Positions 5,070 to 20,400 of a stretch of DNA of 45,895 bases are shown here, in pieces. Under the pieces are notes generated by a model. It saw only the letters and a program-made list of their open reading frames with translations, did not search any database and was not told the origin of the DNA. Within the stretch, counting starts at the first letter, position 1; every line of letters begins with the position of its first letter. Source of the DNA: Candidatus Kuenenia stuttgartensis. Its GTDB lineage: Bacteria; Planctomycetota; Planctomycetia; Planctomycetales; Planctomycetaceae. Position numbers and translations under genes: made by a program. The stretch lies in NCBI GenBank assembly GCA_945861465.1, contig CAMAVB010000031.1, forward strand, positions 1 to 45,895. The letters are read 5' to 3'.

Positions 5070-5113
5070 TGCTCTGACAAGACTGGTTTGGGGCAGGCCG
5101 GACCAAGCGGAGC

Positions 5114-5453
5114 GTTGATTTAGTGGTTTTTACGGCTCATGGTCATACCAACCCGAAGCGCCAGTTTTGAAGTTGCGCATTTTGGGTCGCATGGCCGAGT
5201 TTTGTCCCCTCTCCCCCGAATCGTTTGCGGGATTGCACACTCGAATTACAAAGCCAGCTCGCCGCAAACGATTTGGGGGAGAGGGTAGGGTGAGGGGGAT
5301 TTTCTCGCACGCTGCCTTGCTCAAAAGCCCCCTCATCCGGCCTGTCGGCCACCTTCTCCCCCTTGCCAGGGGGAGAAGGGACAACATAGCGCAACTTCAA
5401 AACTGGCGCTTCGGGTTAGTATGACTTTGAGCCCCGATAATCACTAAATCAAC
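5114..5453. mobile_element. MITE-like element with 65-bp terminal inverted repeats
   Basis: The left end 5114-5178 (GTTGATTTAGTG to GAAGTTGCGC) is an imperfect inverted copy of the right end 5389-5453; the inner 37 bp match at 36 positions. The interior has a second inverted pair (CTCTCCCCCgAATCGTTTGC at 5211-5230 and its complement near 5266-5288) and a CTTCTCCCCC/GGGGGAGAAG hairpin near 5352-5379. It encodes no protein. Target-site duplication was not clear. The same core motif (CTCTCCCC..GGGGAGAG, then AGGGTGAGGGG) occurs in the 27410-27520 element. Confidence 0.8.
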
Positions 5454-5519
5454 AGACCGCTAGCCGCCGGTTTTTGCAGGCGAATTACCCGCTCAGCGGT
5501 CAGTTGATTTAATCGTAGG

Positions 5520-5853: not shown

Positions 5854-7203
5854 ATGCCTGAGTCCGAACGATCCATCTCACTCTTACCACTGGTCACGTG
5901 TCCGACCTGCTGGTTCAGGTTTCCGCCGGAGGAAATTCTGTGGGTGGCGACTCATGGCAGTCTGATGGGTGATTCTCGCGCCGGTGCTGCAGAATATCGC
6001 AGGTTTCTCCCGACGCTCTTCACTGTCGATGGGCGAGCGCTGGATGAGAAGGGAGAAACTTGTCAGGAACTGGCCTGCCCCCGTTGTCATGCGATTGTGA
6101 ATCGCGGCCTGCTGGAAATGGAACCGTTGTTTCTGTCGATCCTGGGGGCTCCATCATCGGGCAAGTCGTTTTATCTCGCCACGATGATTCACTCGGTGGG
6201 CGCGATCCTGAGCAAGCAGTTTCATCTGCGGTTTGAAAATGCGGCACCTCGTGCCAATCAGTTGATGACCGAATATGTAAAGACGCTGTTTGACTACGAA
6301 GATCACACAAAGCTCGTCAAACTCGAAAAGACCGACAGGACGGGAAAGTGGTATTACGAAACGCATGTCGGCGAGCAGGACCTGCTGATGTCGCGTCCAT
6401 ACTTGTACTCGGTTCAGCCGGACGAAACACATCCGCTGCATGGCCGCCGCCGCGAAGTGTCTCGCATGGTCTGTCTGTACGATAATGCCGGAGAGCACTT
6501 TCTGCCGGGCGCCGTGACGTCGCAAACGCCGGTGATCGATCATATGGCGAAATCGGAAGCGCTGCTGTTTATTTACGACCCGACTCAGGAATCAGCGTTC
6601 CGCCGCGCGTGCCGCGCCTGCCGCGACGCCAGTCTGGATCCGCAGCTGGAATCCGTCACCACCACCTATCCTCAGGCGGACGTCCTTTCGGAAGCTGCCG
6701 CCCGAGTGCGGCAATTGACGAGTATGCCCGTCACGGAGAAGTTCGATCGTCCTCTGATTGTCATCGTGCATAAATTTGATGCCTGGCGTCCTTTGCTGAG
6801 AAAGTCTCCCAAACCTCTGGACGATGTGATTCGCGCCGGTCATGATGGAGTTTCCTGTCTGCAACTGGATGTGTTGATGGAAGTCTCCCGGGACATCGAG
6901 GAGCTGCTCCTGGAGCATGCGCCGTCGATCGTCACGGCTGCCCGGGGATTTGCCAGCGAGGTTGTCTTCATTCCGGTCACGGCCACCGGGCGAAGTCCGA
7001 TCGTGGCGGGATCAGATTCCAATGGTCGCGTGGATCTGCGATTCGACCCCAGTCAGATTGCTCCCCGTTGGGTCGAACTGCCCGTGTTCTATGCTTTGCA
7101 CCGAGCCGGGTTACGAAACGGCAACGCATCCCTGATTCCTGCTGCGGAACCGACGACTGCAGCGCCCGTGAAAAATAACGGCCGAAAGGAGCGCGGACCG
7201 TGA
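5854..7203 (+). CDS. Zinc-ribbon P-loop GTPase-like protein (DO-GTPase2-like), operon gene 1
   Basis: 449 residues. Two CxxC pairs (C16/C19 and C75/C78) suggest a zinc ribbon before the NTPase core. The core has Walker A GAPSSGKS (98-105), a Walker-B-like/switch segment CLYDNAGEHF (D210, E214) and VIVHKFD (303-309) in place of the NKxD guanine-specificity motif. This order fits TRAFAC-type GTPases, and I recall the 'double-GTPase' (DO-GTPase2) family defined with GAP1 proteins. The next gene encodes a GAP1-N2-like protein and overlaps by 4 nt (GTGA), so the two are probably coupled in translation and function. There is no membrane segment, so it should act in the cytoplasm as a switch. HKFD rather than NKxD makes strict GTP specificity uncertain. 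Confidence 0.8.
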   Translation: MPESERSISLLPLVTCPTCWFRFPPEEILWVATHGSLMGDSRAGAAEYRRFLPTLFTVDGRALDEKGETCQELACPRCHAIVNRGLLEMEPLFLSILGAPSSGKSFYLATMIHSVGAILSKQFHLRFENAAPRANQLMTEYVKTLFDYEDHTKLVKLEKTDRTGKWYYETHVGEQDLLMSRPYLYSVQPDETHPLHGRRREVSRMVCLYDNAGEHFLPGAVTSQTPVIDHMAKSEALLFIYDPTQESAFRRACRACRDASLDPQLESVTTTYPQADVLSEAAARVRQLTSMPVTEKFDRPLIVIVHKFDAWRPLLRKSPKPLDDVIRAGHDGVSCLQLDVLMEVSRDIEELLLEHAPSIVTAARGFASEVVFIPVTATGRSPIVAGSDSNGRVDLRFDPSQIAPRWVELPVFYALHRAGLRNGNASLIPAAEPTTAAPVKNNGRKERGP

Positions 7204-9791
7204 GTCAGGAGATCGTGTTTACATCGGCGCGTCATGGTCTGCGGACCGGCAGTACGGGGTTCTGCACGGTGCGGAGCACGCGAGGCATGCCGGGAAATCT
7301 GGCCCAGTTGCTGGAACGACTGACGAGTTACTCACATGTATTTGACGCCTACGGAGATCAGGCGAATCTGAATCCGGTGAACTTCGCGCATTACATTGCC
7401 CGACTCGGCGATCAAAAATTTCATATTCTGGCCCGAGTCTCAAATGCTCCGCTCGACCACACAAATCGATCCAATAAGCTGGCCCACCTGCTGGCTGTCG
7501 ACAGCAGCCAGCTTGAAACCGCACATTCCGAGGGCCCGGCTGCGGAATCTTTGAAAGTCCCGTGGATCAGAGAATGGAGCAGCGACACGGAACCGTACGT
7601 GCTGCCGGATGAAAAGCAGATCGACCTTCCCATGCTCGACCAGCCAAAGTCGGGCTCCTGCAACGCCTGGAAGGAAGCGACGGGCGATGCAGGCTGGGCC
7701 GCCGTGCTGGCAACTTCTGCTGGCGACACCAGCGATGCCATGCAGGTGATTATGCCTCGCGACACCGGAAGTCGCCAGCAGACTTGGGCGCTGCAGCTTG
7801 TTCACGAAGCGCTTTCACTGATTCCGCCTGCCCGCCGCTGGGACGTCTCCTACAGCACATTCTTTGGCGGTAATCTGCCTGTCAGTATCAATTGCCGGTG
7901 GCAGTTTATTCTTGACGGAACAGACGCGGCGAAACGAGCTCGGCTGGACCCACGCGCCAAGACCATTGATATCCCGGGAATCGCCGCGAGGAAGATCCCG
8001 GCACCGCAGCTTCCGCTGACTCCACTGACGAACGTTGCAACTCGTCCGTGGGACGATAGCCAGGAAGATTCGATCGCCAGAAGGCGCACGCGCGTCAGTG
8101 CGGATCCATCTATTCCGGATCGATCAACTTCGGAAGCATCGGGTAATATTCCTCACGTCGAGACTACGGACGCTGTGATCGACGAGAAACCCGCCTTCGC
8201 TATTGTCCCAAAACGGAAGGCGACAGGCGCGGGCGTTTCTGATCGACGACGTCGGTCGGCTCGAGGCCCGTTTTTGCTGCATCCTGCGAGTCTGCTGACG
8301 TTGGGGGTCATTATTGTCGTCACGCTCGTCATGGCGGTGCAGCAGTTGCCGGTCGAAGAAAGCAGCGCAGCGGCGAAGATTATGGCCGAGGCGAATGAAA
8401 AAGCCCTAAGCCGCGAACAACAAGAGAAGAAACAGGAAAAACTGGCTCTGAAGAAGCAAAGAGACCAGGAAGCACGAGCGAGGCTAACGGAAGAGGCAGA
8501 AGAGCAAGCGAGGCTTCTGGCATCCTCCAGCATTCCTTTAAAAAATGTCGCCGCGCAGGATTCGACGGTGGAAGCTGAACCACAGCCGGCTGAGGCCCCC
8601 ACGTCGAGAGAACCCGCATTGCCGCCGCTGCAGGACGTACGGGACCGAGGCAATCGGTTGCAAATAAGCCTTCCGAGTGTTGGTCTGAATTCCGGTCCTG
8701 ATGGCCCAATCCAACTTGCCAGGATTTATGTGGATTCGCTCAACGATTTTATGTTAAAGAAGATTATTGGTGGCCGATCCGTGCTGAAGCCCGGTCTGGA
8801 TTTTTCGCTTGAACAGAGAGACATCGATGAGCAAACATTCCGGGACTGGGACGTGATCCGGCGGTCCACGACAGGAGTGGATTTAGGGGGCAATCCGGAT
8901 ATCGTGGGCACATTTCGGCTGGATCAGAATTCGGAACTGTCGTTCCGGTGGCACAAGGGTAATGAAGGATTTGAGATCATCAACTGCCTGCTGGAAATGG
9001 AAGCAGGCGATCCGGACGCAAAACCAGAGCGGGAAAAATGTACGCTTCGCGAAGTGCGTCTGGTTAAGCCGATGAGGTTTGATCCGGCCAATGCGGAGTG
9101 GCTCGAAACATTGGTAGGTCGAAAGGAGTTGGCAAATACCGAGGTCCTTGAGTTGCATTGCGATTTCGTCAATTTGCCCGGCTTGGTCCCCAAAACAGGA
9201 GCGAGAGTTCTGCACGTTGATGATGCGGTGATGTATCACATGCAGGGAATATCGAGTGAAAAGTATCCTCGAAAGGTGGAAATCAGGCTCGAGCTGGTGA
9301 AAACGGAACAGGATGTTCGCATCGCAATCGGAATGACTTTGGAGATGCCCGTTCTCAATCAGGGCAACGGGAAAGTCGAAGTGAAGCAAGTTCCGTTTAC
9401 GCCGAAGCTGATGGGTAAAATGGATGACGATATCGGGGTCCTTTGCGCGGAGATTGAGAAAGGCCGAGATGCTTTGAAGAGAGCCCGCGTGCGGTTAAAA
9501 ACTTTGAGAGATGACCTCCCGGATCACCGCAACAAGAAAGGCGAAGTGGAAGAAGAGTTCCAGAAATCGTTGGATCAGCAACAAAAGACAGTGGATAACA
9601 CACTCGATTTCGTGAAGGCAGGAGATGCCGAGGTACTGGAATTGAGATCGCTTCAGAAGGATCTGAACACCATGTTGGTCGATATCGCGATGCATGGTCA
9701 ATTACAATTTTCATTGCGGTTGATGATTCCGGACGCTGGCGCGGAGGGAATAGAACTGGTGAAAACAGACGACGGAGTCGCAGCCGAGTAA
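7200..9791 (+). CDS. GAP1-N2 domain protein with membrane helix and coiled coil, operon gene 2
   Basis: 863 residues from GTG 7200. Residues 1-270 fit the 'GTPase-associated protein 1, N2' domain as I recall it: FTSARHGLRTGSTGFCTV, RGMP, LNPVNFAHY and NRSNKLAHLL. One membrane helix lies at about 364-384, followed by a charged coiled coil (about 390-440) and a large outer domain with more coiled coil near 745-830. The N-terminal domain should therefore face the GTPase in the cytoplasm and the C-terminal half the periplasm. The C-terminal half is paralogous to the next protein: GTFRLDQNSELSFRW against GEFLLKDQQFRFRW, with similar last strands. The fusion of a GAP1-N2 sensor to a trans-envelope anchor is notable. 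Function is inferred from context only. Confidence 0.78.
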   Translation: MSQEIVFTSARHGLRTGSTGFCTVRSTRGMPGNLAQLLERLTSYSHVFDAYGDQANLNPVNFAHYIARLGDQKFHILARVSNAPLDHTNRSNKLAHLLAVDSSQLETAHSEGPAAESLKVPWIREWSSDTEPYVLPDEKQIDLPMLDQPKSGSCNAWKEATGDAGWAAVLATSAGDTSDAMQVIMPRDTGSRQQTWALQLVHEALSLIPPARRWDVSYSTFFGGNLPVSINCRWQFILDGTDAAKRARLDPRAKTIDIPGIAARKIPAPQLPLTPLTNVATRPWDDSQEDSIARRRTRVSADPSIPDRSTSEASGNIPHVETTDAVIDEKPAFAIVPKRKATGAGVSDRRRRSARGPFLLHPASLLTLGVIIVVTLVMAVQQLPVEESSAAAKIMAEANEKALSREQQEKKQEKLALKKQRDQEARARLTEEAEEQARLLASSSIPLKNVAAQDSTVEAEPQPAEAPTSREPALPPLQDVRDRGNRLQISLPSVGLNSGPDGPIQLARIYVDSLNDFMLKKIIGGRSVLKPGLDFSLEQRDIDEQTFRDWDVIRRSTTGVDLGGNPDIVGTFRLDQNSELSFRWHKGNEGFEIINCLLEMEAGDPDAKPEREKCTLREVRLVKPMRFDPANAEWLETLVGRKELANTEVLELHCDFVNLPGLVPKTGARVLHVDDAVMYHMQGISSEKYPRKVEIRLELVKTEQDVRIAIGMTLEMPVLNQGNGKVEVKQVPFTPKLMGKMDDDIGVLCAEIEKGRDALKRARVRLKTLRDDLPDHRNKKGEVEEEFQKSLDQQQKTVDNTLDFVKAGDAEVLELRSLQKDLNTMLVDIAMHGQLQFSLRLMIPDAGAEGIELVKTDDGVAAE

Positions 9792-9815
9792 AGTATATTT
9801 GTCGGAAATTCAGAT

Positions 9816-11357
9816 ATGAATATCAACGTCACCAAAACGCAGCCTGTCAGTTTCTTCGTGCCCGTAGGCATCGGAGTCCTCGCGCTGATGTTTTGTGCGG
9901 GACTGCTGACAGCGATCACAGCGATTGGATTTTCCTCACCGAGGGGACACAACACGATTGCGCAAGCGTCCGACCCAACTGAGATCGAAAATCTGAATCC
10001 TGCAGGCACTGTGGCGGATTCGTCGTCGATTCCAAACAATGAACCTCCGTCAGCCGCGAGCACAGAGCCTGTCGTCAGGGCTGAACCGAATGCCGATGCG
10101 CCACTGGATCCCGGCACCAGCGACTCTGCGGCAAAGTCCGGAGCCCTGCCTGAGTCAACCCCGTCAGAGTTAACAGCAGCGACAGGCGATGCACCAGCCG
10201 AAGTGCCGCCGGTTGCTGCGGGGAAACCACTGGATGATGTCCGCAACCGGTCACGAAAGTTGCCGCTCGCGGGAGAAGGCGTCCCGGACGATATTGCCTT
10301 GTGTCTGATTCAGGCATCCGATCCGACAAAAGTGGATCTGGAACTGCTTGGTGGTGAGTTCTCCGCGCCGCAGGAACTCAAAGTCCAGCTTGATCCGCCG
10401 TCTCAGGCCGAGAAGTCGCGTATCTGGAGCGTCCGACAGGTCGCTGCTGCCGGGTTCGATCGAACGCAGGATGTGGGCGAATTCCTGCTCAAGGATCAGC
10501 AATTCCGCTTTCGCTGGAAGAAGGATGCGGACAAAGGGAAATTACCGTTTTGCCGACTTAAGATTTCCGTCGATTCAGACACCGAGGTCTGCGATCTCTG
10601 GTCGTCAACGCATCCGCCCGCGTTAAGAGTCAGTTTCAACAACAGCAGTCAGAAGATGGCGACGTTTGTGGCTCCCGGTGTAAAACTGCCTCCCGTCGAA
10701 TTGCTGCAACTGGAGCTTACGTTTGAGGGATGGCCGGAACATGAACGGTCTGGCGATACGCTCGTATTGAATGAGCCCCTGGAGATGCTCTTCCCGGAAG
10801 AAGAGTCGGATCGGAGCCTCCTGAAAATTGAACTGACACTCAAAACGGAGGGTGGTCAACTTGCTGTCGATGCGTTGTACTTCACCAACGTTCCAAAACC
10901 ACCGGCACGGACCGACAAAGGCGAGGTTACATACTCCGAGAAAAAACTAAGCCACAAGGAGTTGGAAAAATTCACCAGGGATGTTGCAACCGCCGTTGAG
11001 AAGTACCAAAGAGAACTCAGCACTTTCGATAAGGAACTTGAAAAGTCCCAGACGGTACTGGACAACCTGGATCGTCAATTGGCAAATGGCTTCGCGCCAG
11101 GTCTGGCGAACGAACGGGATATCCGTCAGCGCCGGATGGAACAAATCGAGGAGCAGAAGTCCGTATCGGCCGGTCTGTTCGACTCTTTTACCAAAGCCCA
11201 GACGGCAATGACGAAACTTTCAGAACTGTGTGAAGAAATCGAAAAGAAGGGACGTATTCATTTTCGGTTAATCCGCTCCATGGGAGCCCCAGGCTCTGAG
11301 ATCGTGATCTCGTCCAGTGTCGATGGCGCAGCGGGACAAGCTGGGAGAGTTCCGTAA
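9816..11357 (+). CDS. Membrane-anchored coiled-coil protein, paralogue of gene 2 C-terminus, operon gene 3
   Basis: 513 residues. One membrane helix at about 11-31 is followed by a Ser/Ala/Pro/Glu-rich linker (about 45-130), then a domain starting LDDVRNRSRKLPL that parallels QDVRDRGNRLQISLP in gene 2, and a coiled coil near 385-490. No enzyme motif is seen. N-in/C-out topology would put the domain in the periplasm beside that of gene 2, and the shared fold suggests hetero-oligomers. Gene 4 starts on its stop codon (1-nt overlap, TAATG). Confidence 0.75.
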   Translation: MNINVTKTQPVSFFVPVGIGVLALMFCAGLLTAITAIGFSSPRGHNTIAQASDPTEIENLNPAGTVADSSSIPNNEPPSAASTEPVVRAEPNADAPLDPGTSDSAAKSGALPESTPSELTAATGDAPAEVPPVAAGKPLDDVRNRSRKLPLAGEGVPDDIALCLIQASDPTKVDLELLGGEFSAPQELKVQLDPPSQAEKSRIWSVRQVAAAGFDRTQDVGEFLLKDQQFRFRWKKDADKGKLPFCRLKISVDSDTEVCDLWSSTHPPALRVSFNNSSQKMATFVAPGVKLPPVELLQLELTFEGWPEHERSGDTLVLNEPLEMLFPEEESDRSLLKIELTLKTEGGQLAVDALYFTNVPKPPARTDKGEVTYSEKKLSHKELEKFTRDVATAVEKYQRELSTFDKELEKSQTVLDNLDRQLANGFAPGLANERDIRQRRMEQIEEQKSVSAGLFDSFTKAQTAMTKLSELCEEIEKKGRIHFRLIRSMGAPGSEIVISSSVDGAAGQAGRVP

Positions 11358-14305
11358 TGGAGACGATCCGCAAAGACGACGTCCAGGACATCGTCGGCGA
11401 AATTCGCGCGATGCTCGAACTTCGCAATGATCCATCTGAAGCAGAACTGAAACGGCTTTCCGAAAAGTATGTAGCCGTGATCCAGCAGGTAAATTCCATG
11501 CTGAAGACGTGTCTGGAGTTGGTTGAGAAAGGTTTGAAATCAGAAGCCATCATGCGGGCGGACGAATACCGTCTGCTGGAAATCGTCTCCATCCTCGACT
11601 TTCCGGAACAGCAGGTCTGGGTTGACCATCTGAACCAGTTCGGTTTCCCGACACCTCCCGCAGCGGATCAGTTTGCGTCTCGCCAGATCAACGCCTGCTA
11701 CGCGCCGGCCCGGCGACTGGAGCCGTTGTACCGTCTGAACCGACAACACGCGCTGGCGAATAGTCCGCTCAGCGTGCGATTGGGTGTCATGCGGCGGATT
11801 TATAAGACGGAAGTCGCCAGTGCCAAAGAGGTGGCTGGTCGGCAGGTCGAACTGTTTGAAACAGAACGCATGAAAGGGGTCCGCAAAGAACTGGCCGATG
11901 CGATGCAGGCGCAGGATCACCGCAGGCTGCATTTGCTTTGTGCGGAACTCAGCAGTAAAGATTGGCTGAAAACTCCGGACGCCGGGCTGGTGCGGAGTGC
12001 CGTCCGTGCACTGAAACAAGACGAAGCTCGACGCGCACGTTTGCAGATGCAGGGATTGGTGTCCAGTCTTCAGGACAAATGGTCGGCTCACGACGTGGCT
12101 GCGGGAAGACAGATTCGTGAGATCTGGAACGCCTGCCAGCAAAAGGCACAGCTTCCTGACGACGACCCGATGATCCAGCAGACCCGTGCGGCATTCGGCT
12201 GGCTGCAGGAAATTGATGAGGAAGAATCAAGGAAGCAGAAGTACGACGAACTGGTCGGTCAGCTTCGGGACGGGCTTGACCAGCGTCACCGCCGAGAATC
12301 GCTGGAACTGCTGGAGCATGCACTCGAAGTCTATGACGATGGTGTCCCGGAATCGCTTCGCAGTCGCCTGCAGACAAGGTACGACGAACTCGAAACGGAG
12401 TCACGAAGGAAAAATGTACGTCGACTTGTGGTGGCATCATTGTCAGTGATCAGCATTGCCGGGCTGGCTGTGTTCGTGCTCCACAACCGAAACGTCAGCA
12501 GCAGTATCGAAGCACACGTCACCGCGATGACGACGCTGCTGGAGCGGGGTGATGTGGAGTCTGCCAAGTCCTATGCAGACACAATCCAAAAAGAGCAGCC
12601 GGACCTGCTGGTGGTTCCGCAGATCCAGGTGTTACTGCTCGATATTGAGCAGGCCGGGCGTGATGAAGATGCCCGACGTGAAGCATTTGAGACCGGCGTC
12701 GCCACGATCACGGAGCGCTTGGATTCCGTGACAACTTTGGCTGATGCCGGAAGTCTCCAGGCACAACTGGATGGCTTGAAGTCACGGGGTGACGAAGAAA
12801 TTGACGACGTGCAGGAGCTGACGGAGAGCATTGAAAAGAAGCAAAAACAGATTCAGGAGCAGAATGATAAGGCCTTCACTTCAGCCCTTGCGAAATTGGC
12901 AGCGGAGTTACAGGACTATGAGGGCAGTGATCAAAAAGACATTAAGCGTTTCGAAGAATTCCGAACCACTCTCGTGCAACTTGGTGAAACGCCAGACGTC
13001 AGTGCAGAACTGATCTCGAATCCGACTGGACCGGCGGCATTGGCCGCGCGCTGTGCGACGCATATTTTTGAAATGAACGTTCAGGTCAGACGTGATCAGA
13101 TGCTCCGGCAGATCACGGCCAGCGTTGGTTCTGTGCCTCAATACAGGACCGCAATCGATGCTTACGTGAAGGAGTTCCCGAAGGATGACGTGCTCGCAAT
13201 CCGTTTAGAAAATCTGTTGCGCACCGAAGCGGATTTCTGGCCTCAGGTTGACGCTCAGAACGAGTTTGTGAGTCAGCACTCCATCGATTGCACACGCCTC
13301 AAACCACTGGAAGCTCGCAAGTATCTGGCCGAATCCGAAGCGTTCCTGATATCGCATCCACAGTTCGCGCGTCGGATGGAACTGACAAAGATTTGCGAAT
13401 TTCTGCGGTTTGTCAGCCAACGGCTTGATGAAGACGGTCAGCCAGTTCACGCCAGAATCATGGAACAGCTTGATAAGGCCAATCTGCAGGATTTATACAC
13501 AGTGCTGTTGCTCACGGAACAACGATACTACACAGACAAAGAGCCAGAGCTTCGGAAAGAGGGTGGCGCGGTTCAATTCTCCCGGCTGCCGGACTGGCTT
13601 GCGGCTGAGCGCCAGCGTGAACCCGTAGCCCGCAATATCGCGCAGGGTACGGTGAAGATTCATAATCGAGATGGCGAACCAGACTGGGAGGCACCGGAAT
13701 CTGTTTTGCTCCGGGAAATTGAACGGGAACTCAGTGGGATTGATGAACACGATTGGGAAAGAGTGATGGTCGATATGCTGGAACGTGTGTACGGCGAGAC
13801 TCGTCAGGATCCCATTTTTCGACTCTTCATGTTACGGACAATTCTCGAAACTGCCGTGTCTGGAAGTCCGGTGATCAGTACACACTACACGCGGGTTCTT
13901 GCACAACTGAAGGATGAGCCACTGAACAATATCAACCCGTTCGATCCGGACGACGAAGCCACGAATCTCAAGAGAAAGCGTGTGTCGGATCTCTTGAAAC
14001 CGATCCGCAATCCAGCCACTGTGCTGCCGGAATTGATGCCTTATCGGGAATCCATGAGCAAACTGTCCATCGGGGGACGATATCGCTGGTTCGGTTGGCT
14101 GAATCGCGGACCGGCCGGATGGGTTTGTCTTTCTGACAAGCCGCTCGCTGCAGATGTCAACGGAAGTTTGTTTATCTATGCAAAAGGCGGGGCCGATGTT
14201 CCTCGCTTTTATCAGATCGGGACACTTGGTGGCGGAACATCGGTCGTTTCGGATACATCCGCGTTTTTGGCCGAGGGGCAACCCATCTATGTTTATGAAG
14301 AATAA
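11357..14305 (+). CDS. Large coiled-coil membrane protein, operon gene 4
   Basis: 982 residues, strongly helical. Residues 1-350 form a cytoplasmic helical region rich in Arg/Glu/Leu, a single helix at about 356-378 (VVASLSVISIAGLAVFVL) crosses the membrane, and residues 380-900 form a long helical or coiled-coil part. The last 75 residues (RYRWFGWLNRGPAGWVCLSD onward, ending GQPIYVYEE) look like a small beta domain. I do not recognise a named family. Its size and topology suit a structural or scaffold part of an envelope complex. Translation is coupled to gene 3. Confidence 0.75.
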   Translation: METIRKDDVQDIVGEIRAMLELRNDPSEAELKRLSEKYVAVIQQVNSMLKTCLELVEKGLKSEAIMRADEYRLLEIVSILDFPEQQVWVDHLNQFGFPTPPAADQFASRQINACYAPARRLEPLYRLNRQHALANSPLSVRLGVMRRIYKTEVASAKEVAGRQVELFETERMKGVRKELADAMQAQDHRRLHLLCAELSSKDWLKTPDAGLVRSAVRALKQDEARRARLQMQGLVSSLQDKWSAHDVAAGRQIREIWNACQQKAQLPDDDPMIQQTRAAFGWLQEIDEEESRKQKYDELVGQLRDGLDQRHRRESLELLEHALEVYDDGVPESLRSRLQTRYDELETESRRKNVRRLVVASLSVISIAGLAVFVLHNRNVSSSIEAHVTAMTTLLERGDVESAKSYADTIQKEQPDLLVVPQIQVLLLDIEQAGRDEDARREAFETGVATITERLDSVTTLADAGSLQAQLDGLKSRGDEEIDDVQELTESIEKKQKQIQEQNDKAFTSALAKLAAELQDYEGSDQKDIKRFEEFRTTLVQLGETPDVSAELISNPTGPAALAARCATHIFEMNVQVRRDQMLRQITASVGSVPQYRTAIDAYVKEFPKDDVLAIRLENLLRTEADFWPQVDAQNEFVSQHSIDCTRLKPLEARKYLAESEAFLISHPQFARRMELTKICEFLRFVSQRLDEDGQPVHARIMEQLDKANLQDLYTVLLLTEQRYYTDKEPELRKEGGAVQFSRLPDWLAAERQREPVARNIAQGTVKIHNRDGEPDWEAPESVLLREIERELSGIDEHDWERVMVDMLERVYGETRQDPIFRLFMLRTILETAVSGSPVISTHYTRVLAQLKDEPLNNINPFDPDDEATNLKRKRVSDLLKPIRNPATVLPELMPYRESMSKLSIGGRYRWFGWLNRGPAGWVCLSDKPLAADVNGSLFIYAKGGADVPRFYQIGTLGGGTSVVSDTSAFLAEGQPIYVYEE

Positions 14306-14332
14306 TTGTGTGACGAAAGGCAAGGTCCGGAT

Positions 14333-15031
14333 TTGACCGATCCACTCTATATTCGTTTGGGACTCACCGTTCGAGGCCCCTATTCACTGTCGGATCTGCA
14401 TGAATTGGCGGTTCGAGGCAGTTTCAGCAAGTCGCATGAAGTCTCGGCGGACAAAAAATCCTGGACCTCCGCTTCAAATCATCCAGAGTTGTTTCCCGTT
14501 CCGCGGCGGCAGTCAGCCGATGGGAAGCAGCAGAACGCAGAAACCACCGATGCAGGGAAGGGCAGCACGGCACGGCCAGTCGATGCGGAGACCCTGGAAC
14601 GATCGCAGGTTCAGCCGCGTGCTCACACGGCGCCAGATCGGACGTCGCAAATGACGGCGGACGAGGCTTTACGACTGACGGGAAGTTCTGGTCCCGCCCC
14701 GAACTTATCAAAGCAAGCTGTCTGGGTTGCGATCACAGGGCCAGTGGGCTTCATGCTGCTGCTCGTGTGTACGGCCATGATTGTGTTGAGCCTGCGTTCG
14801 TCGCCGTTCAGACCTGCTGAGAACATTGGCTTGATGATCCTGTTGAGTATTGACCTCGTGCTTGGTGGAGTGGCAGTCGCACTGGGATCTTTCGCAATCC
14901 GGCTGTTTCATCAGCATTCGGGAGCAATTCGGGAACGCAATCTGATTGTGATCGGCCTCAGTTGCGGCTACACCATTCTGATTCTGTGTATTCTGTATTC
15001 CGTTGTGCTGCTGATCAGTGCTGTTGGTTAA
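14333..15031 (+). CDS. GYF-domain membrane protein, operon gene 5
   Basis: 232 residues from TTG 14333, which has AAGGCAAGG upstream; a TTG directly after the previous stop (14306) is the alternative. Residues 1-50 (LYIRLGLTVRGPYSLSDLHE to SWTSASNHPELFP) match the GYF_2 domain, a small peptide-binding module. A Ser/Gln-rich linker follows and then three membrane helices (about 135-160, 168-195 and 205-231), like the GYF_2-DUF4190 proteins common in this phylum. The GYF domain faces the cytoplasm, where it may bind proline-rich segments of partners. Confidence 0.78.
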   Translation: MTDPLYIRLGLTVRGPYSLSDLHELAVRGSFSKSHEVSADKKSWTSASNHPELFPVPRRQSADGKQQNAETTDAGKGSTARPVDAETLERSQVQPRAHTAPDRTSQMTADEALRLTGSSGPAPNLSKQAVWVAITGPVGFMLLLVCTAMIVLSLRSSPFRPAENIGLMILLSIDLVLGGVAVALGSFAIRLFHQHSGAIRERNLIVIGLSCGYTILILCILYSVVLLISAVG

Positions 15032-15074
15032 CCGCACATTGAAAATCTGGATTGTCCCCTGTTCGGAAATCTTC

Positions 15075-15935
15075 ATGAGTTCTTCTGAGTCGTTACCACC
15101 GCTTTGCTGGAACCGCATGGACATTGAGCAGCGCCTGTACGGAGGTGGTTGCCGCTTCACTGGCGTCAACATGTTCAGGACCTCGATCGTCGGATTGTTG
15201 CTGTCGGTGCTGTTCTATCTGCCTCTGATCGCATTTCCGAAACTGACGATTTCGCAGATGTTTCTGGAGCGGGGATCGACGCCATATGCCATCGTTTTTC
15301 TGTCCGCGTGGGCAAGTGTCGCACTGATCATCAAAGGGCAAAAACTAGCGCTGCAGCGGCGTTGTCTGCTGGAGGAATATCGAGTCGTTCCCGCTAATCC
15401 CAGCTTCATTCTGGCAGCTTCGACGGTAGAAGTGGTGATGAATAACATCCACCGCACTGTTGATGATCCACGTCATTTTATCCTGTTCAATCGTATTCAG
15501 ATTGCGCTGTCAAATCTGCGCAACCTGGGTCGCGTCGGCGATGTTGAGGACATTCTGCGGGCACAGGGAGGCCACGATGAATCATCTGTGGAGACCAGCT
15601 ATTCCGTGATCAACGCCTTTGTGTGGGCGATTCCTGTGCTGGGGTTTATCGGAACGGTCCTGGGGCTGTCACAGGCGATCAGCCAGTTCGGCGGAGTCCT
15701 GCAGGGGGCAGGCGAGATGGACGCGATCAAGACATCCCTGCAAGGAGTCACTGCTGGACTGGCGACTGCATTTGAGACCACGCTGGAAGCACTCGTCGCA
15801 GCGCTGTTGATTCAGTTACGGCTCGCGTTTCTGAAGAAAGCTGAAGAGGAGTTTCTGGATGAATGCACCGAATACTGCACGCGAAATGTCGTGAACAAAC
15901 TTCGGATCATGGTTTTCGAACGCGATGGTGAGTAA
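15075..15935 (+). CDS. MotA/TolQ/ExbB-type proton-channel subunit, operon gene 6
   Basis: 286 residues from ATG 15075; the frame is open back to 15018 (GTG), but that would overlap gene 5. Two N-terminal helices (about 34-52 and 70-90), a cytoplasmic helical stretch, then VINAFVWAIPVLGFIGTVLG (the GxxGTVxG motif of ExbB/TolQ/MotA) and GVTAGLATAFETTLEALVAA (the Thr-bearing pore helix) identify the MotA_ExbB family. It should form a pentameric inner-membrane stator around an ExbD-like dimer. The two partner candidates are genes 8 and 9. A MotA-type channel with a nucleotide switch in one operon recalls Zorya, but no ZorC/ZorD-like gene is present. Confidence 0.88.
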   Translation: MSSSESLPPLCWNRMDIEQRLYGGGCRFTGVNMFRTSIVGLLLSVLFYLPLIAFPKLTISQMFLERGSTPYAIVFLSAWASVALIIKGQKLALQRRCLLEEYRVVPANPSFILAASTVEVVMNNIHRTVDDPRHFILFNRIQIALSNLRNLGRVGDVEDILRAQGGHDESSVETSYSVINAFVWAIPVLGFIGTVLGLSQAISQFGGVLQGAGEMDAIKTSLQGVTAGLATAFETTLEALVAALLIQLRLAFLKKAEEEFLDECTEYCTRNVVNKLRIMVFERDGE

Positions 15936-15940
15936 TTCCT

Positions 15941-16879
15941 ATGACAAGCTCGACCTCAGTCATTCCTGCAACTGCGGCCGCAACAGGTCAGCGGACCACA
16001 GCATCAACAGGTACCGCTTCGACTCGAACTTCTGTGTCACAGGCAAAAGAGTTTCTCACACCGACACTGGTGTCGATCGGAGTCGAGATTGGCACTGCGG
16101 CCTTTCTGATGGCCTTGCTTCTGCTGATGATCTCGACCCGACCGGGTGACGGCGGAGATGATGGTGGTGGTTCCGGCAACGGGACGTCCGGGCAGGGTGG
16201 GACAGGGGATTTTGCGGCCACAGGCTCCGGAAGCGGAACAGGACAGGACCAGACAAAAACGACAACCGGCGCTTCAGATGCGTCTCAGGAAGTCACAACA
16301 GTCGAGGAGAATCCCGGAACTTCCAGCGCGCAGCTGAAATCGGCACCGTCACGTTCGAACGTCGGCACTCCATTATCACCGCCGGAAAAGGAATCAAACG
16401 TATTCATTGTGCAGGACTTGCCACAACCTGCGGCGAACAACGAACCAGCAGGTGCTGGCGGTGGCAATGGATTTTCTGATCTCGGTGACCGGCTGCTTGC
16501 GGCTGGTGCGAAGACTGGAGATGTGCAGATTTCACTGGCATGGAACAATGGCAACGACCTGGATCTGCATGTGGAAACGCCGGGCAATGAAAAAATCTGG
16601 TACAACCAGCGGCAGTCAAGCTGTGGAGGCGAACTGGATGTCGATATGAATGCCGGAGGACCAGCGTCTCAACGGCCTGTCGAAAATGTCTACTGGCCGG
16701 CAGGAGAATCTCCGACCGGAAAGTTTCGCGTCCTCGTGCATCACTTCGCGAATCACGGAGGCCGCGACCCGACAAGGTTTCAGGTCACCATCAAAGTCAA
16801 AGGCAAGTCTGAAAGCTTCTCCGGATCACTGCGGTCCGGTGATGCTCCAAAGCTGGTTCATGAGTTTACATTTCCATAA
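15941..16879 (+). CDS. Membrane-anchored protein with DUF2135/YfaP-like domain, operon gene 7
   Basis: 312 residues. One membrane helix at about 43-65, a Gly/Ser/Thr-rich linker (70-190), then a beta-rich domain (about 200-312): VQISLAWNNGNDLDLHVETP, CGGELDVDMNAG, PVENVYWP and RVLVHHF. This is the pattern of the DUF2135 / YfaP-like domain, which is often exported. It should sit in the periplasm on a flexible stalk. It starts 5 nt after gene 6. A palindromic repeat follows it. Confidence 0.72.
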   Translation: MTSSTSVIPATAAATGQRTTASTGTASTRTSVSQAKEFLTPTLVSIGVEIGTAAFLMALLLLMISTRPGDGGDDGGGSGNGTSGQGGTGDFAATGSGSGTGQDQTKTTTGASDASQEVTTVEENPGTSSAQLKSAPSRSNVGTPLSPPEKESNVFIVQDLPQPAANNEPAGAGGGNGFSDLGDRLLAAGAKTGDVQISLAWNNGNDLDLHVETPGNEKIWYNQRQSSCGGELDVDMNAGGPASQRPVENVYWPAGESPTGKFRVLVHHFANHGGRDPTRFQVTIKVKGKSESFSGSLRSGDAPKLVHEFTFP

Positions 16880-16920
16880 CGCGAGCTTTGCTGGCCGATT
16901 CGTTGATTGACAGAAGAAGT

Positions 16921-17005
16921 AGGGTGGGACCAGCGGCTGATAAGCCGCGCCGGCCCACCATTGATGAAACTAAACGTGGGCCTGCGCTGTCGCTGGTCCC
17001 ACCCT
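16921..17005. repeat. Palindromic repeat inserted between operon genes 7 and 8
   Basis: A perfect 15-bp inverted repeat (AGGGTGGGACCAGCG at 16921-16935, complement at 16991-17005) encloses a second pair (GGCCCAC/GTGGGCC). At 161 bp, the gap between genes 7 and 8 is by far the longest in the operon. The element could form an mRNA hairpin that tunes expression of the ExbD-like genes relative to the channel subunit. Confidence 0.8.
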
Positions 17006-17040
17006 GCAAATCAAGTCGAGGCACCACAAAAGAAAATCGT

Positions 17041-17838
17041 ATGGGCAGACGCAAACAAGCCGCAGTGCCTTTTTCCCTGTTCGCATTCCAGGACATCATC
17101 ACATCGGTCACAGGCATCATCCTGTTGATCACCATGATGATGGCTGTGGAACTCGTGCAGAATCTCAGCCGCGCTGCCGCCGCACCCCAGGAAGAAAAGT
17201 CGTCTCAAGTGGCACACACGCTGCGACAGGCCGTCAGCGAAAGCACGTCGGAATTGGATCGTCTGCAGAAGATTCTGGACGAAACGACAACCATTCGTTT
17301 CAATGCGGATTCACTGCGACGACGGCTGGCAGAACTCAAGGCGGCCGCTGGAGAACTTGAGTTGCAGAATGAGCAGATTCGAACGACTCAGGAAAAGATC
17401 GATGCGCGCAAGGCACAGCAGAACCTGGACGCGAAGGATCTCACACCGGAAGCCGTTGAAGCACTGGCGAAAGAGCAGGAAACAATCGCCCGACAAATCG
17501 CAACGATGAAGCAATCCAATCGCGTCATTTTCAATCGCCCCGCCGGCGCAGCAAAGACGCCGTGGCTGGCCGAATTGAACGAAACGTCGATCGTCGCGGC
17601 AGAAATGGGGCAGGTTCAGCCGCCGCAGTCGTTTGCAACTCCCGAAGCATTTCTGCAGTGGGTGCAGGATCAGGACCGGGATTCACGGTACTTCGTACTT
17701 CTCGTCAAGCCGACCACGATTGAAATGTTTTCGACGATCCGCAAGGCGCTTCAGGATCGACGCTTTGACGTCGGATATGACCTGCTGCCATCCGACCAGA
17801 CGGCAATTGATGCGCAGACAGGAGCGGGTGTGCAATGA
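17041..17838 (+). CDS. ExbD-like channel partner A, operon gene 8
   Basis: 265 residues from ATG 17041; the frame is open upstream through the palindromic repeat, which is not coding. A short cytoplasmic start leads into FAFQDIITSVTGIILLITMM, a single helix with D18 placed like the essential Asp of ExbD, TolR and MotB. A coiled coil (about 50-160) follows, then a small alpha/beta domain at the C-terminus (RYFVLLVKPTTIEMFSTIRK and DRRFDVGYDLLP) reminiscent of ExbD/TolR periplasmic domains. Gene 9 overlaps by 4 nt (ATGA). It is not called exbD because overall similarity is limited to topology and the Asp-helix. Confidence 0.75.
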   Translation: MGRRKQAAVPFSLFAFQDIITSVTGIILLITMMMAVELVQNLSRAAAAPQEEKSSQVAHTLRQAVSESTSELDRLQKILDETTTIRFNADSLRRRLAELKAAAGELELQNEQIRTTQEKIDARKAQQNLDAKDLTPEAVEALAKEQETIARQIATMKQSNRVIFNRPAGAAKTPWLAELNETSIVAAEMGQVQPPQSFATPEAFLQWVQDQDRDSRYFVLLVKPTTIEMFSTIRKALQDRRFDVGYDLLPSDQTAIDAQTGAGVQ

Positions 17839-18746
17839 GTCGTAAAGCTGCTCCCTCCGGCGACAGCCTGGATCTCCTGCTGGACACGATCTGCAACACG
17901 TTCGGCGGAATTCTGTTCATCGCCATGCTTGTCGTGATTCTGACGAATCAGGTCAGTCGCGATGCTGCGCCGTCCGCCCCCAGCGCAGAATCCAGCCGCG
18001 CGCTGCGTCGGCTGCGCGGGGAGCTGACAGAATCGGAAGCGAGACTGACAAAACTCCGCCAGGCCGTGCGGCAGAAAGAAGATCTGGAACGGCAATTTGC
18101 CGATCCGGAAAGTCTCGGTCTGCTGGAATCACTCCGGTCGCTTGACGACAATAGTGACGAGTTACGGGATGAGCGTACACAGAAACTGGCAGATGTCGCT
18201 GACTCACAGGCGGACCTTGCGGAGACTGCCAGGGAACTGGAAAAACTCGCTCAGCGGTTGGCCGAGGCAAAGGAACGACTGCAACTGGAGAAACAAAGGC
18301 TTGAGAGCGAAGCCAGCCTCAGAAGCCGAACGTCCGAAGTCCCCCAACAGCGTGCGACGCAGAAAGCTGCGATTCCCTTCTTTCTCAAAGCAGGACGCTT
18401 CAGCGCTTTCGCGCATCGTAATGAGGACGGCCAGATCGTCCACAATGAGGCGGAGTCGAAGATCGTGGAAGAAGCCCCTGGGAAGAAATACATTGAACTG
18501 GTGCCTGGTGCCGGGCTCGCTGTCGCAGCCGACGGCTCCAATGCTGCCGAGATCGCGGCGCGCCTGGCCGATTTTGACAAGTCTAAGCATTTCCTCTCGG
18601 TGTTTGTCTTCAAGGACTCGTTCGCAAATTTCGAGAGCGTCAAGAACGAAATGATCCGCGGCGGTTTTGAGTATCACCTGGTTCCGTTTCCCGACGACGC
18701 CAAAGTTTATATTGGCGACCAGACCGAACCGGTCTTTGTGCAGTAA
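17835..18746 (+). CDS. ExbD-like channel partner B, operon gene 9
   Basis: 303 residues. The same design as gene 8 with a different sequence: LDLLLDTICNTFGGILFIAM at the membrane with D17 (and D13), a coiled coil (about 50-165), then an alpha/beta C-terminal region (FLSVFVFKDSFANFESVKNE and GGFEYHLVPFP). The pair suggests a heterodimeric B subunit inside one MotA/ExbB-like pentamer, whereas classical ExbD, TolR or MotB are usually homodimers. ATGA overlap with gene 8 supports equal synthesis. Confidence 0.75.
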   Translation: MSRKAAPSGDSLDLLLDTICNTFGGILFIAMLVVILTNQVSRDAAPSAPSAESSRALRRLRGELTESEARLTKLRQAVRQKEDLERQFADPESLGLLESLRSLDDNSDELRDERTQKLADVADSQADLAETARELEKLAQRLAEAKERLQLEKQRLESEASLRSRTSEVPQQRATQKAAIPFFLKAGRFSAFAHRNEDGQIVHNEAESKIVEEAPGKKYIELVPGAGLAVAADGSNAAEIAARLADFDKSKHFLSVFVFKDSFANFESVKNEMIRGGFEYHLVPFPDDAKVYIGDQTEPVFVQ

Positions 18747-18761
18747 TCAGGGATCTGACGC

Positions 18762-20348
18762 ATGAACCAGCAGGGCGGAGCGGACATCAACGAGGAGGCA
18801 AACCCGCAATCGTTTTCCGATGAGGAGTCCGTTAATCAGTTTCGAACGCGAGTTTCCGTCGGCACGCTTGTCGGCGTTATGACCTGCCTGTTGTTCGCCG
18901 GCCTGCTGATGCTGGTGACCTGGTTGCCAAATCGACAAGGAGCCTCCCTTGCCGGAAGCATGGACGGAAGCGGCACCGGTACTGGAACCGGCAACGCAGT
19001 CGGCGATGGCACGTCATCCAGTGACGACGCCAGCGGCGATAATGACCGTACCGTCGCGGGCGAGATAGACCAGTCAACGGACGTCTCTGCTGGTCGCGAC
19101 GGTCCGGATTCCGGGGTTGATGCGCAGGCGGAAGACTCAGGGAATGCAGATCTCGGGTCAGCGAAGGATGATGCGATTGCCGCGAAGGGGACGGGATCGG
19201 TGGATGCTGAAAAACCTTCGCCGCAACTTTCCTTTACAGTTCCACCACTCGAACAGCTTCAGCCCGATCGATCAAGGGACGATGGAGCCCGCGATGCTGC
19301 CGCCGCTCGTTCGCCGGGGATGTTTGCCGGTCGTGATGCCGAGCAGCGAAAGAAACTTGCAGAATCAGAAGGCGGCAGCGCTGCCAGTGAATCAGCCGTG
19401 GAACGCGGTTTGAAATGGTTGGCGGATCACCAGGACAAAGATGGGCACTGGTCGCTGAACGAGTTTCATGCGGCGGGAGAGTGCAACGGACAATGTTCCA
19501 GTCCGGGAAGTGTGAGCGATGCCGCCGGGACAGGATTCGGCCTGCTGCCGTTCCTGGGCGCAGGGTACACCCATCAGAGTGGCAAGTATAAAAAGACAGT
19601 GAAGACTGGTCTCGACTGGTTGATCGCAGACCAAACGAAGGAAGGCACGTTTCGTCATTGTGATGCAGGCACTCTTTATGCGCACGGAATCGCATCGATC
19701 GCGTTATGCGAAGCCTGGGCCATGACAAAGGACCCGAAGCTCAAACAACCCGCACAGCGATCAATCGATTACATCGTGAAAGCACAACATGGGCAGGGCG
19801 GCTGGAGATATTCGCCCGGTATGGCGGGCGACACCAGTGTGACCGGCTGGCAGGTCATTGCCCTGCGAAGTGCTCAGCAGGGAGGACTCCATGTTCCCAA
19901 AGGCGTCATGACGAAAGTATCAGTTTTTCTGGATTCTGTGCAGACCGACAGGAAAGGAGGTGGTTACGGATACACGCCGGGCGGCGGCGGCTCCGACGCC
20001 ATGACGGCCGAAGGCCTGCTGTGCCGCATTTACACATCCTGGAATTCAAAACGCCCGGGTCTCGAGGCCGGAGTCCAATATCTGCTGTCACATCCGCCGC
20101 AACAGGGCGGAGATCTTTACTACTGGTATTACGCAACTCAGGTCCTGCATCATTATGGCGGCGAGCCGTGGGAGGAATGGAATCCTGTCATGAGAGATCT
20201 GCTGATTGATTCGCAGTCCACTGAAGGTCACGAATCCGGCAGCTGGGCTCCTCAGGGCGGACACGATGGCGCTGGCGGACGAGTCTACGCAACATCGCTG
20301 TCATTGCTCACGCTGGAAGTTTATTACCGTCATAAACGGATGTTCTAG
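18762..20348 (+). CDS. Membrane-tethered alpha/alpha-toroid protein (prenyltransferase/squalene-cyclase-like), operon gene 10
   Basis: 528 residues. A cytoplasmic start, one helix at about 33-55, an acidic Gly/Asp/Ser linker (60-200), then a toroid domain (207-528) with repeats such as RGLKWLADHQDKDGHWSL, IDYIVKAQHGQGGWRYSP and the motif GTGFGLLPFLGAGYTH. This is the squalene-cyclase / prenyltransferase-like repeat fold frequent in planctomycete secreted proteins. The DxDD motif of squalene-hopene cyclases is not seen, so it is more likely a binding or structural domain than a cyclase. It is the last gene of the operon; a hairpin with T-run follows. Confidence 0.8.
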   Translation: MNQQGGADINEEANPQSFSDEESVNQFRTRVSVGTLVGVMTCLLFAGLLMLVTWLPNRQGASLAGSMDGSGTGTGTGNAVGDGTSSSDDASGDNDRTVAGEIDQSTDVSAGRDGPDSGVDAQAEDSGNADLGSAKDDAIAAKGTGSVDAEKPSPQLSFTVPPLEQLQPDRSRDDGARDAAAARSPGMFAGRDAEQRKKLAESEGGSAASESAVERGLKWLADHQDKDGHWSLNEFHAAGECNGQCSSPGSVSDAAGTGFGLLPFLGAGYTHQSGKYKKTVKTGLDWLIADQTKEGTFRHCDAGTLYAHGIASIALCEAWAMTKDPKLKQPAQRSIDYIVKAQHGQGGWRYSPGMAGDTSVTGWQVIALRSAQQGGLHVPKGVMTKVSVFLDSVQTDRKGGGYGYTPGGGGSDAMTAEGLLCRIYTSWNSKRPGLEAGVQYLLSHPPQQGGDLYYWYYATQVLHHYGGEPWEEWNPVMRDLLIDSQSTEGHESGSWAPQGGHDGAGGRVYATSLSLLTLEVYYRHKRMF

Positions 20349-20365: not shown

Positions 20366-20400
20366 TTTGGAATGCGGTGACTCGTCACCGCTTTCTTTTT
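20366..20400 (+). terminator. Terminator of the ten-gene operon, also a dispersed repeat
   Basis: TTTGGAATGCGGTGA-CTCG-TCACCGC followed by TTTCTTTTT: a 7-bp stem (20374-20380 with 20385-20391), 4-nt loop and T-run, 26 bp after the last stop codon. A related hairpin (TTTGGAGTGCGGCGA...TCGCCGC) lies at 20513-20538 in the opposite orientation, so the sequence belongs to a repeat family that seems to double as a terminator. Confidence 0.85.

Follow-up and report, generated by a model that had tools for sequence, protein, structure and literature searches.

Do the ten consecutive genes at positions 5854-20348 of a contig assigned to Candidatus Kuenenia stuttgartensis (GenBank assembly GCA_945861465.1, contig CAMAVB010000031.1) specify a single machine, and what would such a machine do? 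The window, which is the whole stretch of 45,895 nucleotides (nt) that was analyzed, carries these genes on one strand, and the original prediction, made from the DNA letters, had read them as an operon for a trans-envelope machine in which a nucleotide switch gates an ion-driven motor. The ten-gene operon is real, its core is conserved together across phyla, and the association of its genes is beyond chance. It encodes a switch (a GTPase and a GAP1-N2 protein), a GYF protein, a subunit of the MotA/TolQ/ExbB family, two paralogous subunits with a membrane aspartate, and the large membrane protein g4. Conserved gene order, residues, and topology make it well supported, at the level of sequence, that a nucleotide switch is encoded with an ion-driven trans-envelope motor, so the co-encoding part of the prediction holds; that the GTPase gates the motor is what we infer. 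The preferred reading, with a probability of roughly 0.5, is that the products would form one inner-membrane-anchored trans-envelope force machine, with an ion-driven motor under a GTPase switch, in the manner of TonB/Tol or Agl-Glt. The features of the operon, with lengths in amino acids (aa), transmembrane (TM) helices by residue number, and the basis of each assignment, are as follows.

5854..7203, + strand: g1, cytosolic zinc-ribbon TRAFAC-type GTPase, DO-GTPase2-like, 449 aa (Pfam, residue conservation)
7200..9791, + strand: g2, cytoplasmic GAP1-N2 and GAP1-M, one TM helix (362-380), large outside C-terminal part, 863 aa (Pfam, hydropathy)
9816..11357, + strand: g3, accessory N-anchored protein, paralogue of the g2 exoplasmic part, 513 aa (alignment)
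11357..14305, + strand: g4, core helical solenoid with cytoplasmic N-half, TM helix 357-375, exoplasmic half, and C-terminal beta domain, 982 aa (neighborhood, AlphaFold2)
14306..15031, + strand: g5, GYF domain (17-62) and C-terminal TM helices, probable adaptor, 241 aa (Pfam GYF_2, neighborhood)
15075..15935 (open reading frame from 15018), + strand: g6, MotA/TolQ/ExbB-family subunit with four hydrophobic segments (PF01618; start from relatives)
15941..16879, + strand: g7, accessory protein with TM helix, Gly-rich linker, and C-terminal domain in a TonB/TolA-like layout, 312 aa (topology)
17041..17838, + strand: g8, stator-like subunit A with an FQD motif in its TM helix, coiled-coil hairpins, and a TolR/ExbD-like domain, 265 aa (AlphaFold2, VIA-align)
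17835..18746, + strand: g9, stator-like subunit B, paralogue of g8, with an LLLDTxxNxFGG motif in its TM helix, 303 aa (hhalign)
18762..20348, + strand: g10, accessory N-anchored protein with an alpha/alpha toroid domain and TM helix 33-51, 528 aa (SQHop_cyclase_C)
20374..20391, + strand: intrinsic terminator, a stem-loop followed by a T-run (fold z -3.45)

All ten open reading frames (ORFs) appear in the window's ORF list at the positions first given for them, with overlaps of 4 nt between g1 and g2, 1 nt between g3 and g4, and 4 nt between g8 and g9, and the closing hairpin with its T-run is borne out by the folding score. Two finer points of the original layout gave way. In relatives, g8 starts at the ATG at 17041 and not at the TTG at 16888, which leaves a 161-nt gap after g7, and comparison with relatives puts the start of g6 probably near 15075, so the 14-nt overlap of the g5 and g6 ORFs is probably not real. 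Promoter-like and terminator-like sites within the operon are not commoner than in shuffled sequence.

Conservation of the neighborhood was followed outward from g6. A g6 profile search of the genome collection returned 298 relatives, of which the best 80 were used; the mapped set comprises 84 loci, namely 79 of these 80 (L083 was dropped, being on the same contig as L021), the window, and four further loci, and it was picked by similarity to g6 and not dereplicated. These relatives, mostly metagenome-assembled genomes, are labeled as Planctomycetota, Verrucomicrobia, Lentisphaeria/Victivallales, and Desulfamplus, and the order g1-g2-g4-GYF-g6-g8-g9, a seven-gene core, recurs across these groups, so that the predicted neighbors do stay together elsewhere. 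Among loci long enough to tell, the g6 anchor is accompanied by g8 in 71 of 77, g9 in 54 of 61, g4 in 44 of 50, g2 in 37 of 43, g1 in 32 of 40, and an upstream GYF gene in 51 of 67, the last count using a profile built from the same loci. One cultured bacterium, Botrimarina colliarenosi Pla108 (L070), has g1, g2, g4, g5, g6, g8, and g9. As a separate observation on layout, g8 and g9 lie on the strand opposite to g6 in the planctomycete loci L087 (RUG14274) and L088 (goat ileum).

The switch half is recognizable both by family and by residue. In the window, g1 matches DO-GTPase2 at E 0.0016, under the curated Pfam cut-off; across the g1 set, window included, the family matches 34 of 42 members at E ≤ 0.01 (best 2.4e-9). 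Where the sequences align, the G1 lysine K104 is kept in 43/43, the G3 motif DNxGE in 44/44, K307 and D309 of the KxD motif in 44/44, and the zinc-ribbon cysteines in 42/42 and 43/43. An N-terminal zinc ribbon, a glutamate in Walker B, and a position adjoining GAP1 are the marks of TRAFAC-type GTPases in GAP1-N2 systems, and g1 has all three, in keeping with the zinc-ribbon GTPase-like product first proposed. Equally, g2 is GAP1-N2-like with a membrane helix, as predicted: Pfam finds GAP1-N2 (5.1e-19) and GAP1-M (9.2e-8) in the window protein, and these occur in 47/47 and 43/47 of its set, window included. Orientation was read from a positive-inside charge bias in g2, g4, g8, and g9. No FNIII match at E ≤ 1 was found by Pfam in the ten genes, and in the g2 set Ig-like families were matched by one member each; since FNIII repeats reportedly diverge quickly, they could be overlooked by a search of this kind. 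The paralogy first noted for g3 is confirmed, as 415 columns of it align with the C-terminal region of g2 (22%, E 2e-5), and a g3 profile matches just seven ORFs of the mapped loci.

On the motor side, g6 matches MotA_ExbB (PF01618) at 1.7e-10, over the cut-off, and its pore-helix threonines are conserved (T213 in 84/84 and T245 in 82/84) at positions that the peptide patterns for locating the loci did not include, which agrees with its predicted MotA/TolQ/ExbB identity. Set beside the membrane layouts of MotA and ExbB, g6, with four hydrophobic segments and a long loop between the second and third, is MotA-like and not of the three-TM type. The products of g8 and g9 are full-length paralogues of each other (hhalign 99.6%, E 1.1e-23), and each has a near-invariant aspartate in a TM helix assigned by hydropathy (D18 of g8 in 74/75; D17 of g9 in 66/67 where aligned). 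An AlphaFold model of g8 (predicted local distance difference test score, pLDDT, 89.3; predicted template modeling score, pTM, 0.52) shows a small alpha/beta domain in addition to coiled-coil helices and a single long TM helix. From topology, the near-invariant aspartate, and a place beside a MotA/TolQ-family gene, a TolR/ExbD likeness of g8 and g9 is probable. Straight membership of the ExbD family is supported neither by Pfam, in which PF02472 is absent even at E ≤ 1, nor by hhalign; the ExbD-like label given earlier is kept as an analogy of fold and topology, with TolR the best fold match to the g8 model by a narrow margin over unrelated folds, and not as a family assignment.

The threonines and aspartates also bear on the proposal that these proteins have no motor function and form an envelope scaffold or an export complex, for example in wall or matrix assembly, with the ExbB-like subunit as a passive channel or anchor. 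The toroid domain of g10, the TM-linker-domain layout of g7, and the large g4 solenoid would suit such a complex, but near-invariant residues along the presumed ion path of g6, g8, and g9 are not expected of a passive scaffold, and the proposal appears improbable. A separate observation, at 6125-10856 of L033 (G000:C14:14001-34000), is a paralogous MotA/ExbB protein of 468 aa with coiled-coil ORFs of 722 and 386 aa after it; long proteins of this kind form a second score band in many Planctomycetota.

Between switch and motor stand g4 and g5. An AlphaFold2 model of g4 (pLDDT 85.6, pTM 0.48) is helical on both sides of the membrane and ends in a C-terminal beta domain; no fold match in the PDB was found for it at E ≤ 0.001, and its 41-member set gave a single marginal Pfam match and nothing else. 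The GYF assignment of g5 was sustained by a GYF_2 match at E 7.9e-5, which is under the curated cut-off in the window. GltJ of the Agl-Glt machinery likewise carries a GYF domain. A second GTPase-GAP1 locus in the same genome, on contig C83 (L032, 454-6248), combines a short ORF resembling g4 with a fusion of a GYF domain and a T2SSE ATPase, and among the 42 ORFs of the g1 set, Pfam places GYF in the same ORF in 2 and FHA in 6. The GYF-T2SSE fusion and the two GTPase-GYF ORFs suggest that GYF may be the plug between the switch and an envelope motor. A proline motif that could be a GYF ligand, picked post hoc, occurs in 12 of 45 GAP1 linkers, compared with 2.9 expected by shuffling.

The genes g3, g7, and g10 are matched in some relatives only and are classed as accessory; in their places relatives have vWA, GYF, trypsin, or HSP70 genes. 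In the window, g3, g4, g7, g8, and g9 have no Pfam match over the curated cut-off; g7, for which a DUF2135-like identity had been proposed, has no Pfam match and so no support for that label, and g10 is a toroid protein as predicted (SQHop_cyclase_C, 8.2e-8). Among the 25 of 125 Pfam families listed for 124 of 200 candidate neighboring genes in relatives, GYF was found in 13, vWA in 10, trypsin in 8, toroid in 4, and HSP70 in 2.

This composition can be compared with published systems, for which parts of the cited texts were available. The GAP1-N2/DO-GTPase family was proposed in 2020 by Kaur et al. to form conflict systems (PMC7159879), in which vWA, HSP70, trypsin, and GYF proteins are among the partners of GAP1-N2 and planctomycete examples include GYF proteins. 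The operon resembles these systems in having a zinc-ribbon DO-GTPase followed by GAP1-N2/GAP1-M with a TM helix and variable accessory genes, and differs in its motor with paired stator-like subunits; the available main text of PMC7159879 names no ExbB, MotA, TolQ, TolR, ExbD, or proton channel. A second paper, from 2025 (PMC12204202), describes clusters in the Planctomycetes-Verrucomicrobia-Chlamydiae (PVC) group that consist of a tetratricopeptide-repeat gene, a tolQ-like gene, two heterologous tolR-like genes, and vWA force transducers. Several relatives resemble these clusters, whereas the part of that text available has no GTPase or GYF. The vWA TM segment described there carries an SHLS motif, which is present in 0 of 18 pattern-selected vWA-like candidates from relatives; these gene-by-gene vWA assignments are leads from regular expressions, and the candidate L047:14212 is more likely to be a kinase. 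By Pfam, the window's ten genes contain no vWA family, which leaves the operon itself outside the definition of the PVC clusters. As far as the available texts go, two literatures each describe one half, the GTPase/GAP1 conflict systems (PMC7159879) and the PVC clusters of tolQ, paired tolR, and vWA genes (PMC12204202), and for some of these loci the latter may be an account of the motor half. No paper joining the two halves was found among open-licence PMC papers. The operon is a variant of the GAP1-N2 GTPase systems, with a TolQR-type motor probably joined to it.

The vWA genes in 10 of the 124 accessory genes bring in a further comparison, with the Myxococcus AglRQS-Glt machinery, and with it the possibility that the locus encodes an Agl-Glt-type machine for adhesion or gliding at the surface, in which a GTPase would be the polarity switch, TolQ would work with a pair of TolR-type subunits, a GYF protein would be the adaptor, and the arms would resemble vWA adhesins. 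The compositional logic is alike: the Myxococcus motor has a single TolQ-type subunit and a pair of the TolR type, a Ras-like GTPase acts on both motor and transducer, and there is a vWA adhesin (PMC3169522, PMC12288465, PMC9389320). In the sections available, AglR works with AglQ and AglS (PMC3169522), MglA acts on AglR and GltJ (PMC12288465), and CglB is named as a vWA adhesin in a title within the reference list of PMC12288465; whether AglQ and AglS heterodimerize is an open question in the Myxococcus literature. The operon nevertheless differs in using a DO-GTPase2-like family and in being contiguous, and AglQ and AglS (PMC3169522) match PF02472 at 6.7e-18 and 3.1e-15, whereas g8 and g9 do not. 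Pfam finds no MglB-type family in the operon, the rest of the genome not having been searched for MglA, and the ten genes match neither a TonB-type family nor one of outer-membrane barrels; the window also lacks vWA. Membership of Agl-Glt was rejected, as the ten genes include no PF02472 AglQ/S, MglA/MglB, or TonB-like GltG/J Pfam family, and an Agl-Glt-type machine is considered unlikely here.

How the system is distributed bears on whether it serves defense, as the original prediction had allowed. Among genomes at least 90% complete, it is present in 32 of 134 from the family and 6 of 12 from the genus, with a clean cut in the family search (379 versus 224 bits; a short contig-edge match in G284 was not counted). 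Phylum-wide it occurs in about 33 of 393 genomes, a count that depends on a less clean cut between the system and a paralogue family, drawn by eye at 228 versus 224 bits. One congener, G285, has all ten genes in a different genomic context. Between the window and G285, synonymous divergence (dS) of the operon is 0.35-0.71 (mean ~0.51), compared with 0.64-1.48 (mean ~1.03) for nine other genes, two of which fall below the top operon value. No match to g6 was found in another genome, G295, which has a 97% identical rpsB protein; DUF3352 stays beside rpsB there, with other genes beyond it and beside the zinc peptidase. The different context and low dS to G285, together with the absence from G295, suggest that the operon was exchanged between the window species and the G285 species, and a lower local rate could also give the low dS. 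Within the operon, g6 is 98.3% identical to its G285 counterpart, with a ratio of nonsynonymous to synonymous divergence (dN/dS) of 0.022, and the cytoplasmic GAP1-N2 part of g2 is 92.9% identical (dN/dS 0.09), compared with 58.6% (dN/dS 0.39) for its fast-evolving exoplasmic part. A rapidly changing exterior combined with a frozen motor would suit a sensor or arm that faces something variable; relaxed constraint would look alike.

Patchy presence, signs of exchange, the fast-evolving exterior, the conflict-system proposal for the family, and accessory vWA, trypsin, and HSP70 genes like the variable components described in the accessible part of PMC7159879 all speak for a Zorya-style defense against phages or competitors, in which GTPase-GAP1 would sense invasion and open the motor, whose rotation or ion flux would in turn power an effector in the cytosol or membrane. 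Zorya ZorAB, as known from PADLOC descriptions and general background, likewise has a MotA-family subunit with an Asp-bearing single-TM partner. Unlike Zorya, the operon has two such partners and not one, no ZorC or ZorD, and no family-level ZorA match. Zorya membership was accordingly rejected: g6 matches the PADLOC ZorA model at 6.3e-5 and the NCBIfam ZorA model at 10.3 bits against a cut-off of 100, and no ZorC/ZorD model is matched among the ten genes. No nuclease or toxin family was found among them in Pfam or PADLOC, and no defense island was seen. When 118 of 154 flanking genes from 23 loci were compared with PADLOC at 1e-15 (L023, L028, L105, and L135 being wholly excluded, together with a few window and L088 genes), the commonest of the 25 of 34 families listed were kinase-type (PD-T4-6 and the like), with 3 genes each and no background control. 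Plasmids and phages gave no match to g1, and viral contigs none to the g6 profile; on plasmids, g6 has two weak cyanobacterial MotA-family matches. The defensive role is doubtful; in its favor stand the family precedent, patchiness, and signs of lateral exchange.

The window's own flanks are mostly housekeeping, which also speaks against that role. On the 5′ side of g1 lie a repeat resembling a miniature inverted-repeat transposable element (MITE) and then a zinc peptidase gene, and on the 3′ side of the operon an AhpC-type gene, DUF3352, rpsB, tsf, and an amino-acid-kinase-family gene taken as pyrH. The MITE-like element, just upstream of the operon at 5106-5461, has 73-nt inverted arms that are 85% complementary and 63 matches genome-wide in about 40 separate places. 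A transposase-like gene with an rve integrase core and a resolvase-type helix-turn-helix lies at 43681-44700. In six congeners, rpsB aligns to the window protein across one in-frame stop (G324, G327, G293, G326, G287 (TGA), and G286 (TAG)).

Several observations weigh against a single, motor-linked machine and have to be set beside the evidence for it. Detectable g1 is missing from 8 of 40 long loci and g2 from 6 of 43, and two Desulfamplus loci (L108 and L109) have a g6 relative and a short g8-like ORF with no GTPase-GAP1 match. In GAP1 loci L023, L024, L026/L027, and L028, GTPase, GAP1, and g4 are present and the sequence within reach holds no motor gene, while some other GAP1 loci end too early to tell; the GTPase-GAP1-g4 module can thus stand alone, and the switch is not always linked to a motor. 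Between the six core families, pairwise distances are correlated at r 0.65-0.86, and for all 15 pairs none of 500 permutations reached the observed value, a pattern that common descent alone can produce. Contacts between switch and motor are inferred, and the proline motif is absent from the window's GAP1 linker and confined to the 12 of 45 linkers already mentioned. For g8 and g9, hhalign comparison with ExbD gave 0.6% and 0.15%, using a small ExbD profile of five ExbDs from the same genome. VIA-align placed E. coli TolR (5by4) first against the g8 model (Z 8.1, 84 residues, root-mean-square deviation 3.1); the periplasmic domain of ExbD came sixth (Z 7.4), unrelated folds scored up to Z 7.5, within 1 of TolR, and Foldseek returned nothing at E ≤ 0.001. 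Toward G294, dS is 2.4-3.2 for g1, g6, and g8 and saturated for g9, higher than for rpsB (0.92) and tsf (1.59), so the low-dS signal is limited to G285; dN/dS is below 1 in every gene and region tested, giving no sign of positive selection. Downstream of the g6 relative in L108, an aminotransferase and a GTPase with a KH domain were observed independently.

Should the trans-envelope force machine exist as proposed, it might work as follows. A g6 pentamer would surround a single copy each of g8 and g9 (5:1:1), and ions moving past the threonine ring and the two aspartates would turn the g8/g9 pair. The long coiled coils and TolR-like domains of g8 and g9, with the exoplasmic half of g4, would carry force to N-anchored arms, which would be g3, g7, and g10 here and vWA or GYF-vWA proteins elsewhere. 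An outside ligand or mechanical state would be read by the fast-evolving exoplasmic part of the GAP1 protein and change the state of the GTPase inside, and GTPase-GAP1 would permit or stall the motor by way of the GYF adaptor and the part of g4 that lies in the cytoplasm.

The role is most likely that of a laterally exchanged accessory system at the cell surface, acting in contact, adhesion, or antagonism, and not housekeeping; it may lie in surface force or adhesion, or in conflict. A broader generalization is tentative and falls somewhat short of an even chance: that GYF adaptors connect GTPase-GAP1 switches of the conflict-system type with more than one kind of envelope motor, here a TolQ/paired-TolR-like one and at the second locus a T2SSE-type ATPase, and that the result is a widespread, laterally exchanged class that arose apart from Agl-Glt. 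Ion-driven envelope motors known to be under a GTPase switch are few, and the myxobacterial one under MglA is the one found in print. If the reading of the operon is true, it would be a second, separate example from another branch of bacteria, one in which two unlike stator-type subunits form a fixed pair; the GAP1/DO-GTPase "conflict" families would gain a concrete output, two literatures that each cover half a locus would be joined, and a testable statement on motor control would follow.

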